From: Clostridia bacterium
Lineage (GTDB): Bacteria; Bacillota; Clostridia; Oscillospirales; Acutalibacteraceae
Direction of reading: 5' to 3'
Length of the DNA: 49,554 nucleotides
NCBI GenBank assembly: GCA_017481575.1
Contig: JAFUPA010000009.1
Coordinates: 69,058 to 118,611, forward strand
Every line of letters starts with the position of its first letter. Position 1 is the first letter of the stretch. Positions 18,964-49,257 of the stretch are shown here, in pieces. Position numbers and translations under genes: made by a program. The notes under the pieces are model-generated. The model did no database searches. It saw nothing but the letters and a program-made list of their open reading frames with translations, and was not told the origin of the DNA.

Positions 18964-20511
18964 TCATGCAACAAAACAAAAAAGCACTTCCGAAGAAGTG
19001 CTTTCTGGTGAACCACTCGTCCCTAAATTCGAACATTCACCCTCTATGAAGGATTCGATATCATCAAGCATTTCAATGTAAGAAACCTGCTTACCGTCCT
19101 TGACATTGAAGTAAATAACGAGCTTATCGTCATAGAGATAAACTGCGTTAACTAAAACATCAATTATCCTTTTTCTAAAATTCAAATCCATAAGGTCACC
19201 GGTGCAGAAACCACGGAGCCACTTTTCGATATCATCAACATTGAGGCGAGCTTTTGACGAAATTCTTAAATCGACGAGCGTGTTTTCTGTTTCTTGAATT
19301 TCAACCTCAATAGCTTCTGCTTTGGCGTTGATTGTATCAATCATTCTCTGTGAAGTTGCATTTATCAGAGAGTTAGCGATTTTATTATAATCGTTTTCAA
19401 GCTTTAGAAGCTTACGCTCCAGCCTCTTGATTTCATCTTCGCCAAGTCCGTTATTGTAAACTTCGGCAACACGCTTTGAAATATGCTGAATACGCTCTTC
19501 TGTCAAAACGTATTCGACAGTTTGCTCACATACATACCATTCGATATAGTCTTTCTTTTCTCGCTTCTTGTCGCAAGGAGCGAGCTTTTTCTTTACATTG
19601 TTGCAAGCGTAATAATAATATCGGTTTCCGTGACGTCCTGTTCCGCAATCACCGACCATTTGAGTACCGCAATGCCCACAGAATAATTTACCTTGCAAAA
19701 GATATTCTTCCTTTGCTTTAGCCTTTGCAGGAGCACGACGGTTCAGCTCGGCACGACGGCGGCATTTTTCGAAAAGCTCTTTTGAAACAATTGCAGGACA
19801 GCCGCCCTCGATTTCAAGTCCGTCATAGCAGTAAACACCGATATACTTTTTGTTGTTAAACATACGCTTAAATGTATTAGGGTTAAACTCTGTGCCTTGC
19901 CTTGTGCGTATGCCCTTGCCGTTGAGTTCTTTTGCCAGAGCCGCCTTGCCGACACCGTTTGCATACTGTTCAAAAACGTATTTAACAATCGGAGCTGTTT
20001 CTTCATCAATGGCGAGCTTGCCGTTTTCAAGCCTGAAGCCGTAGGGGATAGTACCGCCTGTGCTTGCACACTTCATTGCTGATTCTTTCAATCCTCGGCG
20101 GACATTCTGTGCGAGCTGTCTTGAATATGTTTCTGCCATAGCTTCAAGAACAGCCTCAAGGATAATTGATTCGTCACCCTCACCGATGCCTTCGGTTGCA
20201 GAAAGAACCTTAACACCGTTTTTACGGAGCTTATTTTTGTAAATGGCGCTGTCGTATCTGTTACGGGAAAAGCGGTCGAGCTTCCACACAATAATAAACT
20301 TGAACTGCTTTCTTGAGCTATCCTGTATCATTCGCTGAAATTCGGGGCGCTCGTCCGTCGTTCCGCTGATAGCTCGGTCAATGTAACTGCCTATTATGTT
20401 GTAGCCGTTCAATTCAGCGTATTGCTGACAGAAACGGATTTGTCCGTCAATACTTTGCTCGTTTTGCTTGTCAGAGGAATAACGGGCATAAATAACAGCG
20501 TTAGCACTCAT
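18964..20511 (-). CDS. Large serine recombinase (phage integrase)
   Basis: This 515-residue enzyme integrates and excises the prophage through a Ser-DNA intermediate. The resolvase domain has YARYSSDKQNEQSIDGQ with the likely nucleophile S12, then IDRAISGTTDERPEFQRMI and WKLDRFSRNRYDS. The Recombinase domain (GTIPYGFRLENG...) follows, then the zinc ribbon LFCGHCGTQM...C...C near residues 278-318, and a coiled coil (about 360-415). The end of the frame (SNLGTSGSPESTSSEVLFC) reads through a terminator hairpin, so the true phage-encoded C-terminus may be different in the excised form. It is the last gene of the leftward lysogeny operon, 17 bp after the PASTA gene. Confidence 0.92.
   Translation of the reverse strand: MSANAVIYARYSSDKQNEQSIDGQIRFCQQYAELNGYNIIGSYIDRAISGTTDERPEFQRMIQDSSRKQFKFIIVWKLDRFSRNRYDSAIYKNKLRKNGVKVLSATEGIGEGDESIILEAVLEAMAETYSRQLAQNVRRGLKESAMKCASTGGTIPYGFRLENGKLAIDEETAPIVKYVFEQYANGVGKAALAKELNGKGIRTRQGTEFNPNTFKRMFNNKKYIGVYCYDGLEIEGGCPAIVSKELFEKCRRRAELNRRAPAKAKAKEEYLLQGKLFCGHCGTQMVGDCGTGRHGNRYYYYACNNVKKKLAPCDKKREKKDYIEWYVCEQTVEYVLTEERIQHISKRVAEVYNNGLGEDEIKRLERKLLKLENDYNKIANSLINATSQRMIDTINAKAEAIEVEIQETENTLVDLRISSKARLNVDDIEKWLRGFCTGDLMDLNFRKRIIDVLVNAVYLYDDKLVIYFNVKDGKQVSYIEMLDDIESFIEGECSNLGTSGSPESTSSEVLFCFVA
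18976..19006 (-). terminator. Intrinsic terminator inside the 3' end of the recombinase frame
   Basis: AAAGCACTTC (18,981-18,990) pairs with GAAGTGCTTT (18,995-19,004) around CGAA. On the minus strand it is followed by T6, the form of a Rho-independent terminator. Unusually, the recombinase frame continues through it and stops 15 bp later. Confidence 0.75.
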
Positions 20512-20528
20512 AAAATCACAACCTAAAA

Positions 20529-21224
20529 TTATTCGCCAAGATAAAGTGTTACAGCGATTTCAGAAGGATAAGAACCCGTAAGCGGGTATTGACTGATAAT
20601 CTTTGTTCCGCTTCCGCTAAAAGTAATGTTAGCAAAACCTGCAGTTTCAAGTTCTTCTTTTGCCGAAGTTAATGTATATCCGATAACGTTTGGAAGTATG
20701 GAGTTGTTTTGCGTAGAAGACGGTTCTGTTATTTCGTTTTCGTAATCATAAGTTGCAACATTGTAAATACTACACGGAGTAGTTGTGAAATCTATATTGC
20801 ATTTGTAAACCAATTTACCGTTGACATAAGCCTTGAATAAAGAAATAGAGCCTGAATCGTGTACTGTAATTGGATAAACCGAACCATCAAGAACAAGACT
20901 TTCGGCTGTGAGCTCTGAACCATCAAGAGTTGCAGAAATATAACCATAAGCACCTGTATTAGGTAAAGTGATATCAATTATTGCTGTTTCATTATAGAAA
21001 TCATCCCAAAAGTTACTGGTTGCAGAATCGTCTGTGTAGGGTTCGGTTGTAGTTGTAGTAGTTGTTTCAATGGGTTTCCGAGCGTGCAGACTGCTTATTT
21101 CCTCTTGCATACTTGAAACACTTGCTTCAAGGTCATCAAGACGTTCCTCGACTTTCTTATCTGTTATGGTGAAGCCGAATGCACCTAATAAAACAGACAT
21201 TGCGGCAGCTATTATCTTCTTCAT
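20529..21224 (-). CDS. Secreted prophage protein with coiled coil, Thr-rich linker and C-terminal PASTA domain
   Basis: The 231-residue protein starts MKKIIAAAMSVLLGAFGF, a signal peptide or anchor. A short coiled coil (VEERLDDLEASVSSMQEEIS, about 26-45), a threonine-rich linker (TTTTTTT, about 54-60) and a beta-rich middle domain (about 75-160) follow. The end is one PASTA domain (about 172-231: LPNVIGYTLTSAKEELETAG). PASTA domains bind cell-wall fragments or beta-lactams in Ser/Thr kinases and penicillin-binding proteins. Being in the lysogeny operon between exonuclease-side genes and the recombinase, it is probably expressed in the lysogen and placed on the host surface. A function such as superinfection exclusion is inference. 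Confidence 0.7.
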   Translation of the reverse strand: MKKIIAAAMSVLLGAFGFTITDKKVEERLDDLEASVSSMQEEISSLHARKPIETTTTTTTEPYTDDSATSNFWDDFYNETAIIDITLPNTGAYGYISATLDGSELTAESLVLDGSVYPITVHDSGSISLFKAYVNGKLVYKCNIDFTTTPCSIYNVATYDYENEITEPSSTQNNSILPNVIGYTLTSAKEELETAGFANITFSGSGTKIISQYPLTGSYPSEIAVTLYLGE

Positions 21225-21238: not shown

Positions 21239-21799
21239 TTAATTATAAAAAACTTTACCTTCATCAAGGTTCTTCTTGTACATACAAGCCGTTGCGTATA
21301 AGATATCAGGGTGTATACACTTTCCTGCATTGCTACATTCTTTATAACGGCTACAACATCCAAAGCTGGGGAAATTGAAAGATTTTGCGAATATCGTTGT
21401 AATTATATTTGATAATTCTTCCTTTTTTTCTTCACATAATGAAACAAACAAAGAAAGGTCTATTCTTAAATAATCGTCAGATTTAACTTTGTTATAAGAA
21501 ATATTCTCCGCATCAAAAAGTCTTGAATTGATATGAGCAAAAGAAATATATGGTGATTTGCCGATCGTTTTAATACGAGCTAACACAATAGAATCAGCGT
21601 TATTCTGCCGGTAGACGGTGTTTTGAGGTACTGCAATAACACTATTGTAAGAAGCGGCACTGTTTTTTTGCAACTTTATCTTACAATCTGTTAAATATTC
21701 GGGTATTAGAAGACTAACAAAACAATTAAATATTTCTTCATCGGTAAATTGTTTATTAACTTCTACAATATCGAAAATTGTAAATTCTGTATCATTCAT
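21239..21799 (-). CDS. Prophage protein of unknown function with a C-terminal cysteine cluster
   Basis: The 186-residue protein is not one whose function I know. The C-terminal 40 residues hold the pattern FGCCSRYKECSNAGKCIHP, then ATACMYKKNLDEGKVFY: five or six closely spaced cysteines that could bind zinc or an iron-sulfur cluster. I recall similar Cys-rich tails on small proteins of Clostridial mobile elements, but no function. The N-terminal part (1-140) has no recognisable motif. It overlaps the exonuclease gene by 8 bp, so the two are probably translated together and may act together on DNA. Confidence 0.65.
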   Translation of the reverse strand: MNDTEFTIFDIVEVNKQFTDEEIFNCFVSLLIPEYLTDCKIKLQKNSAASYNSVIAVPQNTVYRQNNADSIVLARIKTIGKSPYISFAHINSRLFDAENISYNKVKSDDYLRIDLSLFVSLCEEKKEELSNIITTIFAKSFNFPSFGCCSRYKECSNAGKCIHPDILYATACMYKKNLDEGKVFYN

Positions 21800-22688
21800 C
21801 AGAAATACACCTCTTTACTATTGATAAAAAGTCACTGCCTTTTATAATTTTTATCGGTTTTCCTTTAGCAATTAATTCTTCAGCTTCTTTTATTTTATTA
21901 CTTTTAGCTGATTGTTTGTCTTTAACTGCAGTTAAATCCTCTAATCCCACAATTAAATAATCCGTCTTTGAGCTTACACCACTTTTGAGTTTTCCGCCTT
22001 GAGAAACTATAAATTGTTGTAGGTCGCTACGGCTCATTTCGACCAAATCACCTGTTGCGACAAAGCTTTTATCCTTAAAATCAATACAATCACATTTTTG
22101 GTATTCGAGCGTGGGGAGAACTCCATCTTCTTCCTGCTCTTTTCCTTCTACTTCAGGCACGCAAACACAAGCCTTTGCGTTGAAAATACTTTCATTGTCA
22201 AGCATCTTCAAAATCAGTTTTGCGACAGCTCTTGAGTCATCAAGAGAATTGTGAGTACACTTTGCGTTCAAATTAAAGAATTTACACAAATAATCTAAAT
22301 TGTGCTTTGGTAAATTTGGATAGCTGTCCTGACAATATCGAAATGAGCATAAAAACAAACATTTCGGGAATTCGAGATTATAATGCAACAAAGCATCGAA
22401 AAGTACCTTTTTATCAAAAGAAACATTGTGAGCAAATGCGATTCCATATTTATTGAAAAGGGATATAACTTCTTTCCATACAACAGGGAAAAGGGGAGCG
22501 TCCTTAACATCTTTATTAGTAATACCGTGAATTTTTGTTGCTGATGGTGAAATTTTAATTTCTGGATTAATCAATGAATAGTATTCGTTTACAATTTGAT
22601 TGTCCTCAATAACTGTTATTCCGAGTGAACACGGGCGTTGATTTTTACCACCGGTTGTCTCGAAGTCGAAAGCAATAAAATTCATCAT
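21792..22688 (-). CDS. DEDDh 3'-5' exonuclease fused to a BRCT domain
   Basis: The 298-residue protein has a DnaQ/epsilon-type exonuclease domain (1-175). Motif I is FDFETTG (residues 8-14), motif II is AFAHNVSFDKKVLFDALL (about 77-94), and motif III is HNSLDDSRAV (about 152). It is linked by an acidic segment to a BRCT domain (about 205-298: FVATGDLVEMSRSDLQQFI, GGKLKSGVSSKTDYLIVG). DinG, Pol III epsilon-like and ligase proteins use the same parts in proofreading or repair. Two adjacent ATGs can start; the second overlaps the ImmA stop. Its location in the lysogeny operon, not in the replication module, suggests a function in the lysogen such as defence or maintenance; that is inference. Confidence 0.85.
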   Translation of the reverse strand: MMNFIAFDFETTGGKNQRPCSLGITVIEDNQIVNEYYSLINPEIKISPSATKIHGITNKDVKDAPLFPVVWKEVISLFNKYGIAFAHNVSFDKKVLFDALLHYNLEFPKCLFLCSFRYCQDSYPNLPKHNLDYLCKFFNLNAKCTHNSLDDSRAVAKLILKMLDNESIFNAKACVCVPEVEGKEQEEDGVLPTLEYQKCDCIDFKDKSFVATGDLVEMSRSDLQQFIVSQGGKLKSGVSSKTDYLIVGLEDLTAVKDKQSAKSNKIKEAEELIAKGKPIKIIKGSDFLSIVKRCISDE

Positions 22689-23899: not shown

Positions 23900-24169
23900 A
23901 TGGCAACAGAACAAATCGGAATAATCGTCGAGCGTGGCCCTGCTGGGGAGTTCCTGACACGCAAACCTATTTGCAAGGAGGTGAAGCGTAATGCAGAGAC
24001 CGAGAGATTTGACAGAGAAGTTGAGGAATTGTTTGTCAATTGCATCCTTGATTACCTTAAGGCAAGAGATGAGATGGAGGAGCGCCGCAAAGCGAGGGAA
24101 GCTCTCTTTGCCCGTATCAACAAGCAGAAAGCTGAAGAAATGCTTATTTCCTCTGGAGTGGAAGATTAA
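23900..24169 (+). CDS. Small charged prophage protein of unknown function
   Basis: 89 residues, start with a strong AGGAGGGCAGGGTT site. The second half (residues 35-85) is a long charged helix rich in Glu, Arg and Lys (LKARDEMEERRKAREALFAR), with no signal peptide or membrane segment. It belongs to the early rightward operon. No family could be recognised. Confidence 0.65.
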   Translation: MATEQIGIIVERGPAGEFLTRKPICKEVKRNAETERFDREVEELFVNCILDYLKARDEMEERRKAREALFARINKQKAEEMLISSGVED

Positions 24170-25232: not shown

Positions 25233-27080
25233 ATGGATGTAAACAAAGTTGCGAAGCTCTTACCCGAGCAACCTCGTCCCGGTATGGTCGATGATGTTTT
25301 AAGACAATGCAGATATTTAGAACTCGGTGGTGAGTTTCTAATTTTTCGTCGAGTGCCTATAACAATCGAGCCCGAACTTAAACGCACAATGTTAATGTCG
25401 GATTACGAAGACCATGAGAAAAAAACGGTCAAGCGTTGGGCGGCAGAATGCAGATGTACAGCCTGCAGTGAAGAGTTTATTGCAGGCTATGAAAACAAAA
25501 ACGGTCTTGTTGGTATCAAGATGTATCAGGGCGAGGACGGTCAGCTTTACCCCGATTATGTTCCGCTCGAATATGACGATTATGATTGCATCTGGCTCAA
25601 TTCCGGTGCTTCTGCAAATTGCCCGTATTGCGGAGCAAGAGCAGAGGTTAAAGCAAAAAGCAAACTCACTCGTGGCAGACTTTATCAGACGTTGGTTATC
25701 AGCATAGAAACGGCAGGGGAATATGCCGCCATTGTTACTTGGTTGGTGAGACGAGAACTTAACAGCTATGGTTACTGGAATACAACGTATGCAATTCCAC
25801 GGAACGCAGTTGTCATTGATGAAAAAGGCAGACTGCATTGCTTCAGGCACACAGAAATTCATTTTAATAATGATGTGCCGATTGCAGAATGGAAACCGCT
25901 GAAAGGTTACATAGACCCGACATTTAAAAAATATTACAACTACTCTGCTGTATGTCATACACAGATTTGCGGTTTTACGTGGGAGAACTCGGCAGATTTA
26001 ACCGGAACAACAGGCGAAAAGACAGGTTTGCAGACTTATGTTGAAAAGGGCGGTATTTACCCGACGGTTTATCTCAAGCTGTGGAAAAAGTATCCGCAAC
26101 TTGAAAATATAGTGAAATCGCAGTTTTTCGATATCTTCGAAAGTGAAATTAACTACACCTGCAATCAGCAAATCGAGTATTACGGACATGGACCTGAAAG
26201 CATAGAAATAAAGTGTCTTGACCTCAGCGAGGTTAAACCCCATAAAATGCTTCATTTCAAAAAGAATGAGTTTAAGCACGGTATGCTCACCGAATGGGAT
26301 TGGGAAACCGCATATATGTGGCTTGCTCACCATTGGTATATAGCCGATATGTCAGCAACAGAATATGACGAATACATATCTCTGCTTGGTAGTGAAGCTG
26401 TATATATGCTTGACGGTCAGACGATAGACGGTGAGGACTGGTTTTCTTTGTCCGAAGTCACAAAATACCTTTACAAGCAACAACGCAAACACAATCTGCC
26501 TGTGTGTGAAGGAGTACAGTATCTCATTGACTACAGAGAAGAGCTTTACCGACAGAATGCAAACAATCTTACGCATGAGCTTTTATGGCCGGGCAACCTG
26601 CTTGAAGCCCACGATGCAATAATGGAAACAGCCGCACAGCTTAATGACCCGAAATCATATAAGAATTTCAAGAGGATTGCTAAAAAGTATAAACCGCTTG
26701 AATGGAACGATGGTGAGCTGTGTATCAGAGTTGCAAGAAGTAATCAGGAGCTTGTCAACGAAGGCAAGACTTTAAGACATTGCGTAGGTCGCTACGGAAC
26801 ACAGCACCTTTCAGAGAGTGATGTTATTTTCTTTGTCCGCAAGTACCGCAGACCTGAAAGAAGCTATTACACACTTGACATCCGTATGAATGCAGGTGAA
26901 CCGAGAGAGATACAGCTTCATGGCTACGGTAACGAGCACCACGGTAAAAACAAGGAATACAGTCACACGATACCGCAAAAGGTGCGTGATTTCTGCGACC
27001 GCTGGAAGAAAGAGGTTTTATTGCCTTATTACTACAAAGAGCTTGCAAAGCAAAAGAAAAAGGAGAGTAAATCAGCATGA
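25233..27080 (+). CDS. PcfJ-domain protein
   Basis: The 615-residue protein ends in a PcfJ domain (about 485-605). The signature is LCIRVARSNQELVNEGKTLR followed by HCVGRY, then FFVRKYRRPERSYYTLDI. The N-terminal half carries two zinc-binding motifs, CRCTAC (about residue 70) and CPYC (about residue 131). PcfJ proteins are common on conjugative plasmids and phages next to PcfK; their biochemical role is not established, although the zinc motifs suggest nucleic-acid binding. It follows the PcfK-like gene by 9 bp with GAGGTG and overlaps the DUF3102 gene by 4 bp. Confidence 0.8.
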   Translation: MDVNKVAKLLPEQPRPGMVDDVLRQCRYLELGGEFLIFRRVPITIEPELKRTMLMSDYEDHEKKTVKRWAAECRCTACSEEFIAGYENKNGLVGIKMYQGEDGQLYPDYVPLEYDDYDCIWLNSGASANCPYCGARAEVKAKSKLTRGRLYQTLVISIETAGEYAAIVTWLVRRELNSYGYWNTTYAIPRNAVVIDEKGRLHCFRHTEIHFNNDVPIAEWKPLKGYIDPTFKKYYNYSAVCHTQICGFTWENSADLTGTTGEKTGLQTYVEKGGIYPTVYLKLWKKYPQLENIVKSQFFDIFESEINYTCNQQIEYYGHGPESIEIKCLDLSEVKPHKMLHFKKNEFKHGMLTEWDWETAYMWLAHHWYIADMSATEYDEYISLLGSEAVYMLDGQTIDGEDWFSLSEVTKYLYKQQRKHNLPVCEGVQYLIDYREELYRQNANNLTHELLWPGNLLEAHDAIMETAAQLNDPKSYKNFKRIAKKYKPLEWNDGELCIRVARSNQELVNEGKTLRHCVGRYGTQHLSESDVIFFVRKYRRPERSYYTLDIRMNAGEPREIQLHGYGNEHHGKNKEYSHTIPQKVRDFCDRWKKEVLLPYYYKELAKQKKKESKSA

Positions 27081-28075
27081 GTGAAAATGTAATGATACCG
27101 GAGCGTAACATTGAAACCGTTACCAATGAGATATTGATGCTCAAACATAAGGTGCAGGAAAAGGTAGCTGTATATATTATCGAAATCGGCAGAAGGCTTG
27201 TTGAAGCTAAAGCGATAATTCCGCACGGCGAGTGGGGCGACTGGCTTAAAAACAGAGTTGAGTTTTCTCAAAAGTCAGCAAACGATTATATGAATTTCTA
27301 CAGAGAATACGGTGACGAGCAGTTGTCACTTCTTGCGGACAGCTCAAATTCGCAGGCGCTTTCCAATTTGTCCTATACAAAGGCACTTGCGCTTATTGCA
27401 ATCCCCCGTGAAGAGCGTGAGGAATTCATTGAGGAAAACGACGTTGAAAATATCTCCACACGTGAGCTTGACAAGCTCATCAAGGAACGCAATGAGGCTC
27501 TGAAAAGGGCAGAAGAGGCGGAAAAACTTCAAGAGGTTGTTGAAAACGAGAAGGCCCGGGCGGAGCGCTACGAGCGTGAAGCTGCCCGAAGTGCCGAGAA
27601 CACAAAGGAGCTGACCGAGCGTGTCAATGACCTTAATCTGAAGCTCGAAAAAGCCAAAGAAGCCGAGAAAAAGGCGAAGGCGAAGGTCAAGAACATGAAA
27701 GAAAATCCGACAGTTCCGCAGGAGGTACTCGATAAGCTCAAGGCAGAGGCAGAAGCTGAAGCGGCACAGAAGAGTGCAAAGGAGCTTGAAGAAAAGAACG
27801 CACAGGCGGCAGAAGAGCTTAAGGCGGCACAACTCGCCAAAGAGGATGCCGAGCGTGAGAAGCAAAAAGCAATCGAGCGTGCAGAGAAGCTTGAAAAACA
27901 GCTTAAACTGCAAAATCCCGATGTTATGGAGTTTAAAAGGCTTTTTGAACAGGTGCAAGGCGATATTGTCAATATGGAGAATGCCCTCAACAAATTAAAG
28001 GCATCAGACCCCGAGCTTTCGGACAAGTTTTCGGCGGCTGTTCAGGCATTATTCAAACAACACATCAAGGAGTAA
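27077..28075 (+). CDS. DUF3102-domain protein with long coiled coil
   Basis: The 332-residue protein has an N-terminal DUF3102 domain (about 1-110: RNIETVTNEILMLKHKVQEK, AYIIEIGRRLVEAKAIIPHGEW-like, FSQKSANDYMNFYREY) and then about 190 residues of highly charged coiled coil (EKARAERYEREAARSAENTK; AQAAEELKAAQLAKEDAERE). A short C-terminal helical domain follows. DUF3102 proteins are frequent in Firmicute phages and plasmids, but their function is unknown. It overlaps the PcfJ gene (ATGA), suggesting that the products work in one pathway. Four copies of the CGAGCGTG octamer lie within this gene. Confidence 0.8.
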   Translation: MSENVMIPERNIETVTNEILMLKHKVQEKVAVYIIEIGRRLVEAKAIIPHGEWGDWLKNRVEFSQKSANDYMNFYREYGDEQLSLLADSSNSQALSNLSYTKALALIAIPREEREEFIEENDVENISTRELDKLIKERNEALKRAEEAEKLQEVVENEKARAERYEREAARSAENTKELTERVNDLNLKLEKAKEAEKKAKAKVKNMKENPTVPQEVLDKLKAEAEAEAAQKSAKELEEKNAQAAEELKAAQLAKEDAEREKQKAIERAEKLEKQLKLQNPDVMEFKRLFEQVQGDIVNMENALNKLKASDPELSDKFSAAVQALFKQHIKE

Positions 28076-28078
28076 GCT

Positions 28079-28291
28079 ATGGAAATAATTTTTTGTTACA
28101 TACCGCTTGCGGCAGTTTTAGCAACGATGTTTGTAGGTGTGTTTATGTCTTTTCTGTCCCTAGTGCACGACCACCAACAGCAGAAAAAAGATATTGCAAA
28201 TCTCGAAGAGGACAACCTCACTCTTGCACGTCGCAATCAAGCTCTGCGTGAGCTTCTTCAAAAGCAAACTGAACAGCTTTTGCAAAAATGA
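28079..28291 (+). CDS. Small membrane protein with C-terminal coiled coil
   Basis: 70 residues with one N-terminal membrane segment (IIFCYIPLAAVLATMFVGVF, residues 3-22) and a charged coiled coil (KKDIANLEEDNLTLARRNQA). It resembles Rz-type or septum-like small phage membrane proteins only in layout. It starts 3 bp after the DUF3102 stop with AAGGAG. It is the last gene before the structured RNA region. Function unknown. Confidence 0.7.
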   Translation: MEIIFCYIPLAAVLATMFVGVFMSFLSLVHDHQQQKKDIANLEEDNLTLARRNQALRELLQKQTEQLLQK

Positions 28292-28324
28292 CTGACTTTC
28301 CGCCCCGACCTCAAGCACCGGTTA

Positions 28325-28602
28325 GGGCACCGACAATCGAACCTTGTACGCCTAAAATTTAAATCTTTCGGCGTATCAAGCCGTTTTATCGTCTTGAAAT
28401 ACACCCCGTATGTCGGCGACTCAAAACACCTTGCTACACCAAAATCTTTAGAATTTTAGGTGCGAAGCAGTTTTGTAAGACAGAAATTTTTGTTCTGACA
28501 AGGAAAAGGCTTGCAGGAATATGCCATATTGCAAAAGACTTTTCTGCAGTCAGGGCAGAAATTTGCCTTCCAAAACCGTGCAGTGTTCAATTGTCGGTGC
28601 CC
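28325..28602 (+). ncRNA. Candidate structured non-coding RNA with a long-range closing helix
   Basis: Region 28,292-28,795 (504 bp) holds no convincing gene. Positions 28,325-28,342 pair with 28,585-28,602 at 17 of 18 positions. Directly inside are helix 28,343-28,352 with 28,370-28,380 (one bulge) and a long hairpin at 28,422-28,475 built from four stacked segments. A hairpin at 28,481-28,497 and a hairpin at 28,511-28,534 (TTGC..AATAT/ATATT..GCAA) follow, with AAGGC (28,506-28,510) pairing GCCTT (28,565-28,569). Helices are nested and adjacent, as in a multi-branched functional RNA. The strand is assumed from the flanking genes. I cannot match it to a named family. Confidence 0.65.
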
Positions 28603-28795
28603 GGATTATATGTAAATTTAATACCTATTAACATTTTAAAAGTTCATTTTTAGACAACTACAATTTAATATTTTCAGACTGAAATAATGCAAAGAAAGGA
28701 AGTGGAAAACCTCTCTTATTCCAAAACAAAAACCGGTGTTTGCGAACGGGGCGGAGGGCATTTAAGTAATAAGTAATAGTGAAGAGGGAAGAGGT

Positions 28796-29107
28796 ATGAG
28801 AACACTCAAACAGAAACCCGAAGAAATCAGATTTATGTTTAAAGATGCTGACGAATACGGTTACTTTACCGACCTGCGGCATCCGAAGATGCGTGAAGAG
28901 TTTGAAAACTTCAAGAGATTAAATAAAACCCCGAGACACTTCGCTTTGTCCGACCCCGAACGTCACGAGTTCGACTGCCTTATGGCACACAAATACAAAG
29001 CGGAATGGTACTTTTTCCAGGACGAAACAAAAGGAGGTCACTATGAAAGAAACCATTTTATTCCCTCGGCCTACAGATTGGAAATTTGCAAGGCTGATTC
29101 AGCGTGA
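28796..29107 (+). CDS. Small prophage protein of unknown function
   Basis: 103 residues, start ATG after GAAGAGGGAAGAGG. The sequence is rich in aromatic and basic residues (DADEYGYFTDLRHPKMREEF; HKYKAEWYFFQDETKGGHYE). It is a soluble protein with no recognisable family. Its last 65 bp overlap the next gene, an unusually large overlap even for a phage, so the true 3' end or the reality of the gene could be questioned. Confidence 0.55.
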   Translation: MRTLKQKPEEIRFMFKDADEYGYFTDLRHPKMREEFENFKRLNKTPRHFALSDPERHEFDCLMAHKYKAEWYFFQDETKGGHYERNHFIPSAYRLEICKADSA

Positions 29108-29321
29108 CGATGCGTTTGTCGTGCAGTCGCATTACAACAAAGCCACCAAACGTTTTGAAGCCGAGCGTGTTATTGATATAAAAACAACCCCTTGCCCACA
29201 GCTGCAGGCGGTTATCCTTTACTGCGAGACATTCTGTGAAGCAATCTGTAAGAAGCTACGAAAAAGGGAGGATTACCTCAAGTGGGTAGAGGAGAACAAG
29301 GTGGGTGAGGAAGATGGCTAA
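29043..29321 (+). CDS. Small prophage protein of unknown function
   Basis: 92 residues beginning MKETILFPRPTDWKFARLIQ. It has a strong AGGAGGT site 4 bp before the ATG. The middle part (YNKATKRFEAERVIDIKTTP) looks like a small alpha/beta domain, and a helix with two cysteines follows (LYCETFCEAICKKLRKRE). No family recognised. It overlaps the next gene by 8 bp. Confidence 0.65.
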   Translation: MKETILFPRPTDWKFARLIQRDDAFVVQSHYNKATKRFEAERVIDIKTTPCPQLQAVILYCETFCEAICKKLRKREDYLKWVEENKVGEEDG

Positions 29322-29514
29322 TATCAAGCCTTGCCCGGAATGCGGCGAAACACCGATAGTCGGTTATGCCTGCGGTGATTATTTTATTATGCCACTTTCA
29401 AAACCCCTATTTATGTGTGTTTGCTCTTCCTTTAATGAAATGCACGCATCCGAAGAACGGGAAATTGAAGAATGGAATAAATATGTTGAAAGGTGGAGAG
29501 CTAAAAATGTTTAG
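29314..29514 (+). CDS. Lar-like zinc-ribbon protein
   Basis: 66 residues: IKPCPECG (residues 4-11), a second cysteine pair CVC (about 38-40) and the C-terminal EEREIEEWNKYVERW. The pattern of CPxCG, a later CxC, and an (I/A)xxWN tail is that of Lar-like restriction-alleviation or phage zinc-ribbon proteins. Lar protects phage DNA from type I restriction by stimulating the host methylase; whether this one does so is unknown. The start is taken as ATG 29,314 because the GTG at 29,305 sits within the GGTGAGG ribosome-binding site. Confidence 0.6.
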   Translation: MANIKPCPECGETPIVGYACGDYFIMPLSKPLFMCVCSSFNEMHASEEREIEEWNKYVERWRAKNV

Positions 29515-29632
29515 CTACACAAGTTTTTACCTTAACAATCAGTTCAAAGAATACCCGACAGGCTCGGCACGGTATACGCCGAAGCGTTCACAAAGAATTA
29601 AAGATAAAATGAGGAGGAAAAGAAGAAAATGA
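29507..29632 (+). CDS. 41-residue basic peptide
   Basis: The ATG at 29,507 follows AGGTGGAG and overlaps the previous stop; its own stop overlaps the next ATG, so it is coupled at both ends. The product ends in a very basic tail (RSQRIKDKMRRKRRK) and begins MFSYTSFYLNNQFKEYP. Basic peptides of this kind can bind nucleic acid, but no function can be assigned. Confidence 0.5.
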   Translation: MFSYTSFYLNNQFKEYPTGSARYTPKRSQRIKDKMRRKRRK

Positions 29633-30036
29633 GCCTTAAACAAACCGCAATACAGTATTTCAGTAACCATATAAAAATCCTTAATTCTATGGCGGTGTCG
29701 CCAGACGATAAAGAATACTACGAAAAGTTGAGCAGAATTTATGAGACTGCCCTCGATGCTCTTATAACCGTGCAAAAGCAAGAGGAGGAGATTAAGAGAT
29801 TTGAAGCAGAAATTGATGAACTTCTCAAGAAAAATAAAATACTTTCCAACAATGCCGATACGGCATTTCAGGACGGCTTGAACGAAAATCAAGCCTTGTT
29901 TGAAAAGGAAATTCTTATTGAGTTTAACAAAAAACTCGAAGAAAAGACGGGGTTTCGTTTTAATGACACACAGGAAATCGTTATCCCCGAGCGTGTTATT
30001 CGAGAAATATTCAAAGAAATGGAGATTGAATTATGA
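29629..30036 (+). CDS. Coiled-coil prophage protein of unknown function
   Basis: 135 residues, mostly helical, with a predicted coiled coil at about 45-75 (ITVQKQEEEIKRFEAEIDEL) and a C-terminal domain with KTGFRFNDTQEIVIPERVIR. The start has GGAGG. No signal peptide. Its end overlaps the next gene by 4 bp. It is not in a family I recognise. Confidence 0.65.
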   Translation: MSLKQTAIQYFSNHIKILNSMAVSPDDKEYYEKLSRIYETALDALITVQKQEEEIKRFEAEIDELLKKNKILSNNADTAFQDGLNENQALFEKEILIEFNKKLEEKTGFRFNDTQEIVIPERVIREIFKEMEIEL

Positions 30037-30218: not shown

Positions 30219-30229
30219 GAGGCTTAACA

Positions 30230-31043: not shown

Positions 31044-31072
31044 CTCAAATTCGCAGGCGATTTCAAATTTTA

Positions 31073-31296: not shown

Positions 31297-31362
31297 GAGG
31301 AAGTATGGGATATTAAGTTATTGACCAACTTCCTATAGAAGATAAAAGAAAGGATAAGCTGT

Positions 31363-32745: not shown

Positions 32746-32755
32746 GGTGGGGAGA

Positions 32756-35225: not shown

Positions 35226-35274
35226 AAGTCCACCGTTCGCCTTACCTCGGAGTATAAAAAATTCCCAAAACCCT

Positions 35275-35311: not shown

Positions 35312-35327
35312 AAGGAGGTGACGGACT

Positions 35328-38761: not shown

Positions 38762-39425
38762 CATCAAAAGTGATATTGTCGGTAATGACGAAGCGTGGAT
38801 TTACAGGTGGTACGGAATTGATTGTGTTACTCCTAAAAACGTACTTTCTGCACTTGACGAAGCCCGTAAAAACAACAACGAGCGTGTTGATATTTACATA
38901 AATTCGGGCGGCGGTGATATTTTTGCCGCATCTGAAATTTACTCGGCTTTGATTGAGTATGAGGGTGAAGTGATGATTCACATTGTTGGACTTGCGGCTT
39001 CGGCAGCAAGCGTTATTGCCTGTGCCGGTGTTTCTGAAATTGCCCCGACCGCTATGTTGATGATTCACAATGTTTCAGCTCAAACCCGAGGCGATTATAA
39101 CGCTATGGAGCATTCTGCTGAAATGTTGAAAAAAGCAAACTTAACAATCTCGGCCGCCTACCGTGCAAAGACCGGCAAGACGGACGATGAGCTTCTCGAT
39201 TTAATGAATCGGGAAACTTGGTTTACAGCGGATGAAGCTGTCAGCTTGGGCTTTGTTGATAAGCACATCGACACAAGCAAGGTCAGACTTGTTGCGGCAG
39301 ATTCCCGTGTTCTTTCTCTTGACACACTCGAAAAAATGAAATCGGTTGCTCGGGAGAATGAAGCACTCAAAAAACAAAATTCACATTATAAAAACTATAT
39401 CGAATTGAAGGAGAAATCTATATGA
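38751..39425 (+). CDS. ClpP-like capsid maturation protease
   Basis: The 224-residue serine protease cuts scaffold or capsid precursors. The catalytic Ser is in GLAASAASVIACAG (about residue 82-95) and the His in MLMIHNVSAQ (about 102-111). YINSGGGDIFAASEIYSALI is the ClpP oxyanion region, and the Asp lies near VRLVAADSRV or earlier. The start is ATG 38,751 with GGAGGTG. It overlaps the portal by 11 bp and the capsid gene by 4 bp. Confidence 0.92.
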   Translation: MRINIKSDIVGNDEAWIYRWYGIDCVTPKNVLSALDEARKNNNERVDIYINSGGGDIFAASEIYSALIEYEGEVMIHIVGLAASAASVIACAGVSEIAPTAMLMIHNVSAQTRGDYNAMEHSAEMLKKANLTISAAYRAKTGKTDDELLDLMNRETWFTADEAVSLGFVDKHIDTSKVRLVAADSRVLSLDTLEKMKSVARENEALKKQNSHYKNYIELKEKSI

Positions 39426-40718: not shown

Positions 40719-41015
40719 ATGAAGGAAAAATTCTATTCACAGCAGAATGTAATTGTTATTCGCAAAAGTCTGCGATATAGCCACTCTCGACTTGATTCGG
40801 AAATTCAGGATACTATCAAGGACTGTTTGTCAGATTTGGAACTCGCAGGCGTGAAACTTAACATAGTTTCGCCTGCGAGCGTGCTTATGGCAATCAAGCT
40901 CTATTGCAAGTGGATTTTTGACTATAACGGCAAGGGCGAAGACTGGCACACAGCTTACGATTTAAAAGTCAAGGCATTATCTCTTGATAGCAAAGGTTGT
41001 GATACTGATGAATGA
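40719..41015 (+). CDS. Head-tail connector protein (gp6-like)
   Basis: 98 residues, helical, placed directly after the major capsid gene. The pattern VLMAIKLYCKWIFDYNGKGE followed by DWHTAYDLKVKALSL matches gp6/DNA-packaging connector proteins that form the first ring below the portal. The ribosome-binding site AAAGGTGG lies somewhat far (about 10 bp) from the ATG. It overlaps the next gene by 8 bp. Confidence 0.75.
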   Translation: MKEKFYSQQNVIVIRKSLRYSHSRLDSEIQDTIKDCLSDLELAGVKLNIVSPASVLMAIKLYCKWIFDYNGKGEDWHTAYDLKVKALSLDSKGCDTDE

Positions 41016-42778: not shown

Positions 42779-43258
42779 ATGAAAGCACATATAAGATATG
42801 ACGATATCAAGCTCAAAACAGTTCCTATGATGCTTGATAACCGCACTTTTAACATAACCGCAACTCTTAATGCCGTTGAAAGAATACAGAATAAGTTCGG
42901 CTCGCTTGACAACGCTATCGACCAAATAGGCGATATGGCTATATCAACCATAAAAGAGCTTATTTTGATTTTTATAGATGATGCCATCGAGCGTGCGGAT
43001 TTTGAACCAAAGCTTGCAGAGGGTGAAACATCTGTAGGAATTACAGCTCAAAAGATTGGTAGCTGTATCGGTTTCAGCAATATTCAGTATTACAACGATT
43101 GCTTAATGTATGCAATCAGCGGCTCTCTCCCTGAAACAGAGGCCGAAGCTTCGGTTGATGACGAGGGAAATGAAACAGTCGTTACTGACGAAATGCTCGC
43201 CGCACTCGATGATATACCCGACGTCCCCGAGCCGTCAAAAAACTTGAAAGCCGAGTAA
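42779..43258 (+). CDS. Tail assembly chaperone, zero-frame product (gpG-like)
   Basis: 159 residues. It is the short form of the tail chaperone that coats the tape measure. The N-terminal domain (MKAHIRYDDIKLKTVPMMLD, NAVERIQNKFGSLDNAIDQI) is typical of phi13/TP901-like chaperones, and the C-terminus is acidic. Near its end the codons TCA AAA AAC contain the slippery A AAA AAC that leads to the longer -1 product. The ATG has no near ribosome-binding site: AAGGAGG is beyond a hairpin. Confidence 0.85.
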   Translation: MKAHIRYDDIKLKTVPMMLDNRTFNITATLNAVERIQNKFGSLDNAIDQIGDMAISTIKELILIFIDDAIERADFEPKLAEGETSVGITAQKIGSCIGFSNIQYYNDCLMYAISGSLPETEAEASVDDEGNETVVTDEMLAALDDIPDVPEPSKNLKAE

Positions 43259-43402: not shown

Positions 43403-45886
43403 ATGGCTAAAAAGTTTAATATAGGCCCTAAAATTGTGCTTGACGGTGAAAAAGACTATAAGAAAGCAGTCACCAATATAAACGATTCTATGAAACTGCT
43501 TGCATCTGAAATGAAGAAAGCCTCTGCAGAGTTTTCAAGCAATGGAAATGCTTTATCAAGCGCTAAAGTTCAAACTGAGCAGTACAATGAAAAAATTGAA
43601 TTGCAAAAACAAAAGATAAAAGCATTATCTGAAGGTTTAGAAAATGCCAAGAAAGAATATGGTGAAAATTCTGAACAAGCAAAACAGTGGGCTATATCGT
43701 TAAATTATGCTGAAACCGATTTAATAAAGTTCAATAACCAGCTTGACGAATTTAATGAAAAAATACGGGCTTCTAAAGGAGAGGAATATAAGAAGACAAT
43801 CAATGATATTGATGCTTCAATGGAATTGCTCGCCTCACAAATGAAGAAAGCCTCTGCAGAGTTTTCCGATAACGGTAAAAGTCTCAAAGCGTTAAAGTCT
43901 GAAACACAACAGCATACCGATAAGGTTAAACTTCAGGAAGAAAAGGTCCGCACTTTGGCAGGCGCCCTCGAAAATGCCGAAAAGGAGTACGGTAAAAATT
44001 CCGCTGAAGCCAAACGCTGGGCGACTTCTCTTAATAATGCTGAAGCTGACCTCGTGAAGCTGAATGACCAGCTTGACGAGCTCAAGAAGCAAACGACCGG
44101 TATCGGGAAAATCAAAACTGCATTTCAAGAGATGAAGGATAAAATATCCGACATCAAAAGTAAGCTTTCTCCTGTAACTGACGGTCTAAAAAAAGCGGCT
44201 TCTGCGGCGGCAAGTGTAGCAAAAGTTTCGTTTAAGGCTGTAGCTGCAGGGGTTGCGGCAATTGGAACAGCTGCGGCGGCAGCCGGTAAGAAATTGCTTG
44301 ATATGTCTCTTGAAACAGCAGAGGCGGCGGATAATATTGATGAACAGTCTCAAAAGATGTCACTTTCTGCAAAACAGTATCAAGAGTTAGCTTATGCGGC
44401 TGACGTTAGCGGTACTAATATGAAAACTTTGCAGATGGCGCAGAAAAATCTGCTGACCTCCGGAAGTAATCTAGGTTTGGTAGAAGCTCTTAAAGAGTGT
44501 GCTGATTCTTCCGATGTAGCATCAACAGCGGTTGAAATGTTCGGCTCTCGTTGTGCTCAAGAGCTTATACCTATGCTTAACGGCGGCAGTGCGGGTCTTG
44601 AGGAGATGATGAACAAGGCCGATGAATTAGGTCTTGTTATGTCCGATAAAGCAGTCAAGGCAGGTGGCGAACTCAACGATAACTTGACCACGTTAAAAAG
44701 CACCTTCACAGGCGTTAAAAATGGCATTATGAGCAATCTTTTACCTGGCCTTAATCAATCAATTGTTGGAATGACAGGTTTGCTTATGGGTACAAAAGGC
44801 GCAAAGGATGAGATTGTAAAAGGTGTTGCTGAAATGGCGGCTTCACTTAAAGTTGTATTCACTCAAATTTCGAGCGTGTTCGGAACTCTTGTGACTTCAA
44901 TTGCCGCAATTGCACCGCAAGTTATAAGCAGTCTGGTGAATGGACTTGTTGAAAATCTCGAACCATTGATAGAGGCGGCTATGAGTATAATTTCCTCTCT
45001 TGCCTCAAGTCTGCTTCAAGAGGACAACCTGAACACGATAATCAAAGCCGCAGTAAGTCTTATAACTCAACTTGTTTCGGGATTGGTAAATAACCTAGAC
45101 CTGATTATCGATGCCTGCATAACAATAATCACTTCTCTAACTACTGCATTGACCGAAGACGGCAATATGCAAAAGCTTATTGATGCCGCTTTCACAATTA
45201 TTATGAAGCTGTCCGAGGCAATGATTGAGCTTGTTCCTCAACTCATAGATTGCGGATTACAGTTAGTGTTAGGTCTTGTGAAAGGCTTGTGGGATAACCG
45301 GGATAAAATATGGACTACCATTAAAAATCTCGGAAAAACACTTATAAGCACGTTTACGTCATTGCTCGGAATACAAAGCCCGTCAACTGTATTTGCCGAC
45401 TTTGGTAAGAACCTCATACAGGGACTTATCAACGGAATTGAAAACGTTAAGGGCTGGCTTAAAGAGAAAATCCGTTCTCTTGGTACAACCATTATATCCA
45501 CAGCAGAGGATATCCTCGGCATAAACAGCCCGTCTAAAGAGTTTGAGGCTCTCGGTGACTTCTCGGGTCAAGGCTACGGCGTCGGTTTCATCAAATCAAT
45601 GAAAAAGGTCAAAGAGCAGATGAAATCTTCAATTCCGACAAGCATTGACAGCGACGTAGGTGTCAGAGTTAAAGCTTCAATGCAGACTGTACGCAATGAG
45701 TTATCCGATACTGTTCCTTCATCAGGAGGAAAAGGAAACATTACCCGTGAAAAAATAAAGCTTTATGTTTCTCTTAACATTGAAAAGTTTGTTAATTCCG
45801 CTGAAAGTGACATTGACGAGCTTATCGATATCATTTCCGAAAAGCTTTATTTGAAAATCAAGAGGAAAATGGAGGCGTTTGCATAA
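43403..45886 (+). CDS. Tail tape measure protein
   Basis: 827 residues, setting tail length. The N-terminal 230 residues are two tandem copies of a 110-residue coiled-coil unit (each with LLASxMKKASAEFSxNG and NNQLDE or NDQLDE). A hydrophobic region at about 270-300 (AAAGVAAIGTAAAAAGK-like) and membrane-spanning segments at about 490-590 follow. The C-terminal region holds two GIxSPSxxF motifs (LGIQSPSTVF, LGINSPSKEF) common in tape measures. The ribosome-binding site is AAAGGAGG. The GIxSPS repeats are well known in the family. Confidence 0.92.
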   Translation: MAKKFNIGPKIVLDGEKDYKKAVTNINDSMKLLASEMKKASAEFSSNGNALSSAKVQTEQYNEKIELQKQKIKALSEGLENAKKEYGENSEQAKQWAISLNYAETDLIKFNNQLDEFNEKIRASKGEEYKKTINDIDASMELLASQMKKASAEFSDNGKSLKALKSETQQHTDKVKLQEEKVRTLAGALENAEKEYGKNSAEAKRWATSLNNAEADLVKLNDQLDELKKQTTGIGKIKTAFQEMKDKISDIKSKLSPVTDGLKKAASAAASVAKVSFKAVAAGVAAIGTAAAAAGKKLLDMSLETAEAADNIDEQSQKMSLSAKQYQELAYAADVSGTNMKTLQMAQKNLLTSGSNLGLVEALKECADSSDVASTAVEMFGSRCAQELIPMLNGGSAGLEEMMNKADELGLVMSDKAVKAGGELNDNLTTLKSTFTGVKNGIMSNLLPGLNQSIVGMTGLLMGTKGAKDEIVKGVAEMAASLKVVFTQISSVFGTLVTSIAAIAPQVISSLVNGLVENLEPLIEAAMSIISSLASSLLQEDNLNTIIKAAVSLITQLVSGLVNNLDLIIDACITIITSLTTALTEDGNMQKLIDAAFTIIMKLSEAMIELVPQLIDCGLQLVLGLVKGLWDNRDKIWTTIKNLGKTLISTFTSLLGIQSPSTVFADFGKNLIQGLINGIENVKGWLKEKIRSLGTTIISTAEDILGINSPSKEFEALGDFSGQGYGVGFIKSMKKVKEQMKSSIPTSIDSDVGVRVKASMQTVRNELSDTVPSSGGKGNITREKIKLYVSLNIEKFVNSAESDIDELIDIISEKLYLKIKRKMEAFA

Positions 45887-46614: not shown

Positions 46615-49046
46615 TACCCATTATATGCAAAAATGACGAGACAAAAGTCGGCTTTTTAAAAAAAGCCATAAAGGCAGAGGTTACAGAGGAACGAAACGGA
46701 GTTTATGAGCTGATGCTTGAATATCCCGTTACAGGTGAACATTACAGCGAAATTATCGTTGACCGTTTCATCAAAGCTAAACCGAATATGACCTCTGATA
46801 ATCAATTCTTTCGTATCTACAAAGTCTCAAAGCCTATTCACGGAATTGTAACTGTTAAGGCTGAACACGTTTCTTACGCTCTTTCTCATTATCCGATAAA
46901 GGCAGTCGATCTGACAAGCACTACTGCACAGTCGGCTATTAACGGCGTTTTAAGTGCAAGCTCTGAAAGCTTAAAATCCGCACATCCTTTCAAAGTTGGC
47001 GGTTGCGACATTGAGACGATTGCACCGTTTAAAGCTCAACTCTGTTCAGCTCGAGCGGCTCTCGGTGGCATCGAAGGCTCTGTTCTTGACACTTACGGCG
47101 GTGAACTTGAATTTAATAATTACACCGTTAACCTGCATAAGAACAGGGGAGCTGATAACGGTGTCCGAATTACTTACGGTAAAAATATGACTGACCTTAA
47201 GCTGGATATATCCTTACAGAACAGCTATACGGGAATATATCCGTATTGCATAGGTGAAGATGATACCCTGATAACTCTCGACGAAGGAACGATTCATGTC
47301 GAGAATGAGAGCGGTATTGCCGAGCGTGTTCTTTTGCTGGATTGTACCTCAATGTTTGAGGATGACGAAGAAAAGAACGCAGACAACCTCAAGAAACACG
47401 CAAATGAATACCTCGCCAATAACGATATTAACGCAATCGAAGGCTCAATGTCTGTTTCTATGATTGACTTGTCAAAGTCAGAGAATTATAAAAATCTGTC
47501 CGTACTTGAGACTGTTTCACTCTGTGACACAGTTAAAGTTGAACATAAAAATCTTGCCGTAACGGTCAAAATGAAGGTTATTAAGGTTATCTATGATGTT
47601 CTTGGTGAGAAAAATAAAACGCTTGAATTAGGTACTGCAAAATCGGATTTTGCAGACACAATAAAGCAACTTACCCATACCGCTGAAAAAGCAAAAGAGT
47701 TTGCTGCAAAGACAGAGTCGAAGCTTGTAAAAGAATACAAACAAGCAATCGAAGATGCCACAAAGGCTATAACGGGAGCATCGGGTGGATATGTTGTTTT
47801 AAATCCACCTAAAAACCCCAGCGAAATTCTCATTCTTTGTGATTCGCCGAGCATTTCAAAAGCTAAAAAGATATGGCGCTTTAATAGTGCCGGTCTTGCG
47901 TACAGTTCAAGCGGATATGAAGGCCCTTATGGTCCGGCATTGCTTGCTGACGGAAAGTTTGTTATCAATGATATTACTGCACAGACGATATCGGCTAACC
48001 TCATCCGCTCGGGTATGCTAACATCGGTTGACGGTAACTCGTATTTCAACCTAGACAGTGGTCGGATACAGGTTGCAAATGATAAGTTTATGACTATTAT
48101 TGACGATGGAATAATCACGCAGACTGATATAAAAACAGGCGTTGAAGTTGGTGGACTACAACCATATTGGACAGAATCAGGTTATTCTTATCAAGGTTTG
48201 TATTTTAAGGAAAATGAAAAGATTTATGGTGCGATTATTGCACAGCAACTTCTTGACGGGAATACTAACACGATAGCAAGGTTTTACCCAGATTATATTC
48301 ACTTTCATAAAATCTTGAGGGCAGACGAGAGTATTGTAACGGATGCTAATGTGACTACAAATGCAGATTATTCTAATTTATTTGCAGGACTTATTCATTA
48401 TCGTGGTCACACATTCAATGGTACTTCAAAGCAAAATGTTTCTGTTGGCTTTGGTTGTGGTGTGCGTGAAGAACGTTCAAGCATTGCATTGGAAATGAAA
48501 TATGCCGGTTCTGACAACATTTTGGCACGATTAGACGTTTATCGAAGTGCAGGAGAAGCAATGGTGTGTATCGTTGGGCAGAAAGGTACAACAACATCAA
48601 ATGTTTTGGAACTCGGCGAAAAGCTTTACTTTAACGGTAATATTGTTTCGGATGACATCGAGGTTTCATCTACTGAAACAGTAAAAACAAACATTCAAGT
48701 AACGGATTCGGTTTTATCACTTTTTGAAACTGAAAATTCAGAGGTCTATTCCTACAACCGACTTCACACTAAAACAGTATACGATGAATACGCCGAAGAT
48801 GAAAGCGGGGAGTTTACTACTCAAGGCATAGGTCAAGAGATTATAGAAATCGATGAAACTACATCTTATGGTTTTGTCATTGGTGAAGATTATAAAACAC
48901 CTGCTGAAATATTAACTGCGGACGGTGAACACGTAAATCTTTATTCAATAGCCGCTTTAAATTGGAAAGCAATTCAAGAACTTTACCTGCAGTTAAAAAC
49001 TGCACAGGGAGAAATCGAAACACTAAAGCAACAGATTGGAGGTTAA
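46611..49046 (+). CDS. Tail-associated (Tal/prophage endopeptidase tail) protein with receptor-binding-type C-terminus
   Basis: 811 residues. The N-terminal 380 residues are the Tal/gp27-like domain (YELMLEYPVTGEHYSEIIVD, FFRIYKVSKPIHGIVTVKAE, SYTGIYPYCIGEDDTLITLD). A helical linker (THTAEKAKEFAAKTESKLVK) and a beta-helical or fibre-like C-terminal region (about 430-720) follow, then a short coiled coil (ALNWKAIQELYLQLKTAQGE). It forms the tail tip and probably contacts the host. The C-terminal half is the part expected to vary between phages. Confidence 0.85.
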   Translation: MIPIICKNDETKVGFLKKAIKAEVTEERNGVYELMLEYPVTGEHYSEIIVDRFIKAKPNMTSDNQFFRIYKVSKPIHGIVTVKAEHVSYALSHYPIKAVDLTSTTAQSAINGVLSASSESLKSAHPFKVGGCDIETIAPFKAQLCSARAALGGIEGSVLDTYGGELEFNNYTVNLHKNRGADNGVRITYGKNMTDLKLDISLQNSYTGIYPYCIGEDDTLITLDEGTIHVENESGIAERVLLLDCTSMFEDDEEKNADNLKKHANEYLANNDINAIEGSMSVSMIDLSKSENYKNLSVLETVSLCDTVKVEHKNLAVTVKMKVIKVIYDVLGEKNKTLELGTAKSDFADTIKQLTHTAEKAKEFAAKTESKLVKEYKQAIEDATKAITGASGGYVVLNPPKNPSEILILCDSPSISKAKKIWRFNSAGLAYSSSGYEGPYGPALLADGKFVINDITAQTISANLIRSGMLTSVDGNSYFNLDSGRIQVANDKFMTIIDDGIITQTDIKTGVEVGGLQPYWTESGYSYQGLYFKENEKIYGAIIAQQLLDGNTNTIARFYPDYIHFHKILRADESIVTDANVTTNADYSNLFAGLIHYRGHTFNGTSKQNVSVGFGCGVREERSSIALEMKYAGSDNILARLDVYRSAGEAMVCIVGQKGTTTSNVLELGEKLYFNGNIVSDDIEVSSTETVKTNIQVTDSVLSLFETENSEVYSYNRLHTKTVYDEYAEDESGEFTTQGIGQEIIEIDETTSYGFVIGEDYKTPAEILTADGEHVNLYSIAALNWKAIQELYLQLKTAQGEIETLKQQIGG

Positions 49047-49050
49047 TTTT

Positions 49051-49257
49051 ATGACGGACGAAATCAAGAAGCTTATATCTGATGTTGACAAAAGAATTGA
49101 AGCTTCTGCAAATCAAATTGACCAGCTGTCGCAGATGCTTAATGAAGCATCTGTAAATCATCAGCGTTTAATCGGCGAGCGTGCCGGCTATTCCAAAATG
49201 CTTAAGGCAATGGAGAACACAACAAAAGAAGGTGAGTCTGATGCTGATAAAGCTTAA
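49051..49257 (+). CDS. Small coiled-coil tail-region protein
   Basis: 68 residues from ATG 49,051, with GGAGGT upstream. Nearly all helix with heptads (ISDVDKRIEASANQIDQLSQ; HQRLIGERAGYSKMLKAMEN). It lies between Tal and a baseplate-type gene. No family is assigned. Its last 17 bp overlap the next gene. Confidence 0.65.
   Translation: MTDEIKKLISDVDKRIEASANQIDQLSQMLNEASVNHQRLIGERAGYSKMLKAMENTTKEGESDADKA

Follow-up and report, generated by a model that had tools for sequence, protein, structure and literature searches.

We analysed a stretch of 49,554 nucleotides (the window) from the draft genome of a Clostridia bacterium (family Acutalibacteraceae; assembly GCA_017481575.1), in which a prophage carries the octamer CGAGCGTG in large excess and in a single orientation. 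The window lies at the right end of contig C38 (JAFUPA010000009.1) of a 2.1 Mb assembly with an estimated completeness of 72.9%. Its first part (1 to ~18,960) is chromosomal and includes spoIVB- and spo0A-type genes. The prophage spans 18,961–49,554 (30.6 kb in view), beginning with an integrase gene at 18,964; its right end is out of view because C38 (118,611 bases) ends at window position 49,554.

Prophage Gene Content

At the left edge of the prophage lies a serine-type integrase gene (18964–20511, minus strand; Pfam Resolvase and Recombinase, phrog_95 integrase), followed by leftward genes of the repressor region, rightward early genes, and then HNH nuclease, terminase, head, and tail genes. 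One leftward gene (20529–21224) encodes a protein with a C-terminal PASTA domain (Pfam), which is unusual for a phage immunity region; another encodes a DnaQ-type exonuclease with a BRCT domain (21792–22688, minus strand; RNase_T and BRCT, phrog_192) that is not a known phage recombinase. The rightward early genes include those for a replication initiator of the G2P (rolling-circle) type (31363–32190, plus strand; Pfam REP_ORF2-G2P, E 7.5e-8; phrog_3584) and a Holliday-junction-resolvase-like VRR_NUC nuclease (32187–32600, plus strand; VRR_NUC, phrog_5702). A 181-aa open reading frame (ORF) at 34140–34685 has a partial match to phage DNA methyltransferase families (phrog_12862, phrog_67).

An HNH endonuclease gene, assigned by family match (34923–35225, plus strand), adjoins the genes for the terminase small subunit (35328–35882, plus strand; a weak match to phrog_83, E 7.3e-6) and the terminase large subunit (35879–37561, plus strand; phrog_9, E 9e-159), which is the usual arrangement in cos phages; a portal protein gene (37568–38761, plus strand; phrog_12) is next. 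The large terminase gene is on the plus strand, which is therefore the sense strand of the late genes. No recombinase or AddAB inhibitor was recognised among the scanned proteins of the visible prophage (Pfam and phrog families).

Copies of the Octamer in the Prophage

Our recount agrees with the original prediction in finding 22 copies of CGAGCGTG on the plus strand of the prophage, the first at 19275 and the last at 49176, and none on the minus strand. The three leftmost copies (19275–19282, inside the integrase gene; 21079–21086, inside another leftward gene; 22106–22113, inside the exonuclease-like gene) were again seen to lie antisense in leftward genes while keeping the same DNA orientation. 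Ten copies are in the Glu-Arg frame (27571–27578, 27616–27623, 27850–27857, 27874–27881, 29988–29995, 33710–33717, 34661–34668, 38879–38886, 42988–42995, and 47321–47328) and three in the Ser-Val frame (38586–38593 in the portal gene, 40876–40883, and 44871–44878 in the tape-measure gene); by the present gene list these numbers replace the 14 and four given before. Five copies are outside the listed genes (23929–23936, 29162–29169, 32627–32634, 34850–34857, and 49176–49183), and one (33541–33548) overlaps the GTG start at 33,546, as previously described.

All eight bases are conserved. The heptamer GAGCGTG has 24 copies on the plus strand of the window (23 within the prophage) and none on the minus strand. 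In the prophage it is preceded by C in 22 cases and by A in one (at 27413), never by G or T; the leading C is thus kept at 22 of 23 sites, as first claimed. Single-base variants of CGAGCGTG number only 0–3 copies each per strand of the prophage. The expected number of plus-strand copies is 0.32, 0.54, 2.97, and 9.4 at Markov orders 2, 3, 4, and 5, respectively, at which the octamer ranks 1, 1, 8, and 158 among 20,496 octamers; the order-5 expectation is high because parts of the octamer itself feed the background. The count against a Markov background that had been proposed as a check therefore places CGAGCGTG first at orders 2 and 3, with an excess of ~40-fold over the order-3 background. Spacing of the copies is no more regular than chance.

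This excess bears on the earlier proposal of an anti-restriction role. Phage T7 escapes EcoP15I by keeping its sites in one orientation, and escape from type III restriction could likewise account for the 22/0 arrangement. Such escape removes one orientation, but it does not raise the other ~40-fold over the order-3 background at eight exact positions; the remaining orientation would be expected at a near-chance frequency, and it was found in ~40-fold excess. We regard this explanation as very improbable.

Codon Use and the DNA-Level Signal

The preferred spelling of Glu-Arg as GAG CGT, or a protein repeat, could in principle generate copies of the octamer: ten are in the Glu-Arg frame, and of 35 Glu-Arg pairs, 14 use the spelling GAGCGT. 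A signal of this origin is present in the closest terminase relative (locus L049), where GGAGCTT occurs 19/2 on the two strands and 17 of 18 genic copies are in the Glu-Leu frame, a case of codon pairing that looks like a one-way motif. When codons were shuffled within the 35 listed prophage genes (1000 shuffles), however, a mean of only 1.36 and a maximum of 5 genic copies were obtained, against 17 observed (minus strand, 0 observed against 0.10). The copies exceed expectation in all three frames (Glu-Arg, 10 against 0.87; Ser-Val, 3 against 0.05; third frame, 1 against 0.05) and in antisense within leftward genes (3 against 0.41), and a coarser null in which the gaps were left unshuffled predicts 4.88 for the whole prophage. 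A further six copies, including the one at the GTG start, are not wholly inside a listed gene, although some may fall in short unlisted ORFs; the sequence outside genes amounts to 4,348 bases. In addition, the outer C and G, which come from neighbouring codons, are both present at 9 of the 14 GAGCGT-spelt Glu-Arg pairs, compared with 2 of 19 other Glu-Arg pairs (p 0.002).

Codon use thus fails as the whole explanation of an octamer that is spread over three frames, leftward genes, and gaps, and it is exceedingly improbable as the cause of the pattern. The contention that codon use was insufficient is upheld, and the low score against a shuffled background that would have undermined it was not seen. 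CGAGCGTG is an eight-base signal at the DNA level; its excess is real and strong, and is explained by neither chance nor codon use alone. Since codon use alone would set copies in rightward genes on the plus strand, the evidence for orientation consists of the nine copies outside rightward genes (three in leftward genes and six not wholly in a listed gene), all nine of which are on the plus strand.

The Octamer in the Host Chromosome

The host chromosome, too, shows enrichment and strand bias of the octamer, which leaves the proposed phage-specific role unsupported. Of the 186 copies in the genome, 164 lie outside the prophage; the reversed control word has 39. Density is 0.72 per kb in the prophage and 0.09 per kb in the host (~8-fold). 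The claim that the flanking chromosome lacks the octamer is correct for positions 1–18,960, where neither strand carries it, but does not extend to the genome as a whole or to the 88 kb of C38 left of the prophage, which has two copies, both on the plus strand like those of the prophage. Across 752 kb of host sequence outside the prophage, 68 copies were found against 14.2 expected at Markov order 3 (rank 10 of 62,881), 24.5 at order 4 (rank 22), and 30.1 at order 5 (rank 3). In the same sample, TTGCGGCA, CCGCCGCA, and AAGCTCGG are ~5-fold above the codon-shuffle expectation in both sense and antisense, perhaps reflecting codon context.

Strand lean was judged contig by contig in the draft assembly. 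Within a contig, host copies favour one strand and run in one direction along lengthy stretches. The lean goes beyond gene sense: in genes that face the minority direction 11 of 22 copies are antisense, compared with 6 of 45 in genes that face the majority direction (p 0.002). A survey of the 20,319 octamer orientations present 25 times or more showed that 11 combine enrichment (z ≥ 10) with polarity (z ≥ 2) in the host; CGAGCGTG is the only one of the 11 that is also dense and one-way in the prophage. A related genome of the genus (G003) has 12 copies consecutively on one strand of its contig C11, and 62 of 84 neighbouring site pairs in that genome are in like orientation (100 of 104 sites listed).

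A strand lean of this kind would be expected of a chromosome-segregation signal, such as the FtsK-orienting polar sequences (KOPS) or SpoIIIE recognition sequences (SRS), read by FtsK or SpoIIIE and copied by the prophage. Both the long one-strand stretches, exemplified by the 12 copies in a row in G003, and the agreement in strand between the prophage and the two other copies on its contig are consistent with this. However, the phage gains nothing obvious from such a signal, and known KOPS are G-rich. The density rise towards dif that is associated with KOPS and SRS was not found in the draft sequence beside the prophage: no local gradient explains 22 copies in 30.6 kb, because the adjoining 88 kb has two. 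A segregation signal is accordingly an improbable source of the pattern.

AddAB and Comparison Within the Genus

The host encodes AddAB, with addB (C1:37741–41058; 735 bits, below the curated cut-off of 903.7) and addA (C1:41096–44617; 889 bits, above cut-off) adjacent on contig C1. In an AddB tree of 17 of the 18 genus genomes (those with an addB match, two of the sequences being partial), the four genomes densest in CGAGCGTG (the host G000, with G003, G010, and G014; 65 to 88 copies per Mb) form one clade with support of 0.997. The sister clade (G002, G004, G006, and G012) has 25–32 copies per genome against 19–33 of the reversed word, and outside both clades G001 has 88 against 39 and G008 has 81 against 41. 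Enrichment is not unique to the AddB clade, because other families of the order also vary widely (e.g., G027, 235 against 36). At eight AddB positions the enriched clade has a fixed change while the outgroup G008 agrees with the sister clade; three of the eight (positions 65, 68, and 70) are beside the residue aligned with F68 of Bacillus subtilis AddB, compared with 0 of 16 in the sister clade. In passages of PMC4824097, F68A and F210A of B. subtilis AddB are Chi-binding mutants.

The host copies and the AddB clade are also where the proposed packaging or replication role falls short. The octamer might be a signal read by a phage protein, for example one that marks where lagging-strand synthesis starts on a single strand of rolling-circle intermediates. 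In keeping with this are its strict one-way arrangement, the G2P-type initiator, and the location of 11 of the 22 copies within 27,077–35,328 (p 0.018, for a region chosen after the sites were seen). Such a signal would, however, leave unexplained both the enrichment and polarity of the octamer in the host chromosome and its link with an AddB clade, and we consider it unlikely.

The Octamer as a Predicted Chi

Of the roles proposed originally (Chi-like, packaging, replication, or anti-restriction, each specific to the phage), the evidence favours the Chi-like one, shorn of its phage specificity; the others do not fit the host copies or the excess. We propose that CGAGCGTG is probably the Chi of the host AddAB helicase-nuclease, as predicted from sequence, and that a recombinase-less phage exploits it. 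From the excess, exactness, and one-way arrangement of the octamer, its enrichment and strand lean in the host, and the presence of addAB, we infer Chi activity, the end at which AddAB enters, and a benefit to the phage.

Excerpts from PMC3784561 (Bobay, Touchon, and Rocha, 2013) report that E. coli phages without recombinases bear an excess of Chi, and that lambdoid Chi sites are mostly between the origin and the packaging site. As a control, we counted the known Chi GCTGGTGG in five E. coli or Shigella phages oriented with the terminase on the plus strand. The plus/minus counts are 17/5 in SfV, 16/4 in mEp460, 4/0 in HK97, 3/0 in mEp235, and 2/0 in N15, and codon shuffling predicts 5.3/0.8 in SfV and 5.9/0.7 in mEp460; in these two phages Chi is therefore in excess on both strands, with a strand lean no greater than codon use gives. 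Their annotations include no annealing recombinase or RecBCD inhibitor, although mEp460 has an annotated exonuclease, and the two have early genes in common. Erf-like and Abc2-like genes are present in HK97 and mEp235, and three lactococcal phages with annealing proteins have no copies of GCGCGTG.

The prophage may be loaded with CGAGCGTG because it depends on host recombination. AddAB would enter a double-stranded end of phage DNA (a concatemer after cutting, the tail of a rolling circle, or newly injected DNA) and degrade the molecule, and Chi would be read only if its strand has the 3' end at the point of entry; E. coli Chi is read by an enzyme entering from the 3' end of the Chi strand, according to parts of PMC5959072. 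Under this geometry, the plus-strand copies would act on AddAB entering from the right (the tail and lysis end, remote from the terminase genes) and moving left. The enzyme would meet a copy on average every 1.4 kb, cease destruction of the 3' strand, and load RecA, and the spared phage DNA could be recombined into concatemers, which the terminase would package. A single orientation would suffice if the other DNA end is usually held by terminase; lambda terminase holds the left DNA end.

Several observations weigh against this proposal. In the 752-kb host sample, the enrichment ranks only 93 at Markov order 6 (68 copies against 46.8) and 34 in the host codon shuffle (67 against 14.8), a moderate signal, and by a simpler majority rule the strand lean is likewise moderate (z 2.5, rank 79 of 7,636 octamers). 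Sampled stretches of G003 gave 7 copies against 3.3, although its whole genome has 104 against 7. The p value of 0.0007 for the AddB loop is exploratory, since the limits of the loop were set after the alignment had been seen. The absence of a recombinase is provisional, as the prophage is seen without its right end and many of its early proteins match no named family. A rolling-circle initiator nicking the plus strand would give a tail end that needs the opposite orientation. As for the control phages, SfV and mEp460 support the excess and not the one-way arrangement, because codon use predicts their lean, and N15, which has no annotated recombinase, has only two Chi sites.

Nor was the one-way pattern seen to repeat in related prophages. 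In 127 terminase-related loci (47 from genomes and 80 kept of 140 from IMG/VR; 1.82 Mb in total), none repeats it, with 21 copies on the plus strand, nine on the minus strand, and at most two per locus. Among 300 genomes of the host family, 38 have a terminase match, and the four prophages read from these have 0 or 1 copies of CGAGCGTG, with no excess. Neither the 127 loci nor the four family prophages are known to reside in the CGAGCGTG-enriched clade.

More tentatively, changes in the loop of AddB that reads Chi could have given rise to a CGAGCGTG Chi inside a single genus, with the phage filling genes and gaps across its genome in the sole orientation that its DNA-end geometry can use. Use of host Chi by phages is already known; what would be new is this octamer, a host with AddAB, and an arrangement that is strictly one-way. 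Among the open-access (PMC) papers listed, judged by titles and abstract openings and with most subscription papers outside this scope, none named a Chi in a bacterium of this kind or a phage with Chi in strictly one orientation, and the matches to GAGCGTG among those listed were primers. If the proposal is correct, prophages of this kind would point the way to Chi in bacteria that cannot be cultured, with a candidate Chi readable from sequence alone because the phage concentrates the word ~8-fold over the host and fixes its orientation. The AddAB of the sister species would then offer a natural experiment on a change in Chi recognition, because those species are not enriched in the word.

Other Phages and One-Way Octamers

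Megablast of 25 of its 30.6 kb against 50,697 phage records gave no match; the integrase has two distant relatives in IMG/VR, in which no relative was found for the DUF3102, Rep, capsid, and PcfJ-like proteins. Within the genus, phrog_9 terminase was recovered from the prophage itself and from one weak match. A phrog_2 terminase large subunit match is present in all 18 genus genomes (L421–L438), mostly at ~425–450 aa, and looks chromosomal and conserved.

Other one-way octamers were sought in the 88 loci of at least 11 kb, the 39 shorter loci being left out. L064 was rejected because its 35 exact copies of the array-like CACACGCC, with overlapping octamers, in 21.7 kb look like a tandem repeat. 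In six loci (L051, L068, L072, L086, L101, and L107), several of them from Lachnospiraceae, GGCAGCAG or GCAGCAGG is confined, or nearly so, to the terminase-sense strand (8–19 copies, against 0–2 in reverse). We did not retain GGCAGCAG as a comparable signal, as it partly reflects codon use (15 against 2.65 in L051; 19 against 4.8 in L086); it is weak in one host (G059, 32 against 21.2). The Lachnospiraceae-phage word contains CAGCAG, the site of EcoP15I. In a paired-octamer scan of IMG/VR, the best 25 of 80 loci, among the matches listed, were mostly GC-rich.

Comparison With Known Systems

As in the one-way type III sites of T7, every copy in the prophage is in one orientation; the prophage word differs in being over-represented and exact at eight positions. 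With the KOPS and SRS of FtsK and SpoIIIE it shares the character of an oriented, octamer-like motif leaning to one chromosome strand, although it is far more densely packed in the prophage than in the neighbouring chromosome.

Chi is known from few bacteria, with eight rows in the table of PMC5959072, and the same source, in part, describes a leading-strand lean as usual for Chi but absent for Pseudomonas Chi. That table gives the Chi of Lactococcus lactis and streptococci as GCGCGTG, and so agrees with the original prediction that GAGCGTG is one base from the lactococcal Chi; the enzyme there is also of the AddAB/RexAB type, and the prophage word differs in that its leading C also matters (22 of 23 sites). 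The alignment of host AddB with its B. subtilis counterpart covers the length of the protein (E 1.3e-120), and host AddB retains the residues aligned with F68 and F210, whereas the residues aligned with R70 and W73 differ. Both R70 and W73 of the B. subtilis protein contact Chi, and the candidate word of the host is longer than the B. subtilis Chi, AGCGG.

The closest parallel in phage biology may be with the Chi-rich lambdoids, which are likewise temperate phages with no recognised recombinase and a large excess of the host Chi, matched here by a Chi-like octamer with 5 of its 22 copies between the initiator and terminase genes (p 0.068) and 11 within 27,077–35,328 (p 0.018). The orientation is stricter here (22/0, compared with 17/5 in SfV and 16/4 in mEp460), the host uses AddAB rather than RecBCD, and the Chi activity is predicted from sequence. 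If the prediction is correct, phage use of host Chi would extend from RecBCD enterobacteria to an AddAB bacterium.

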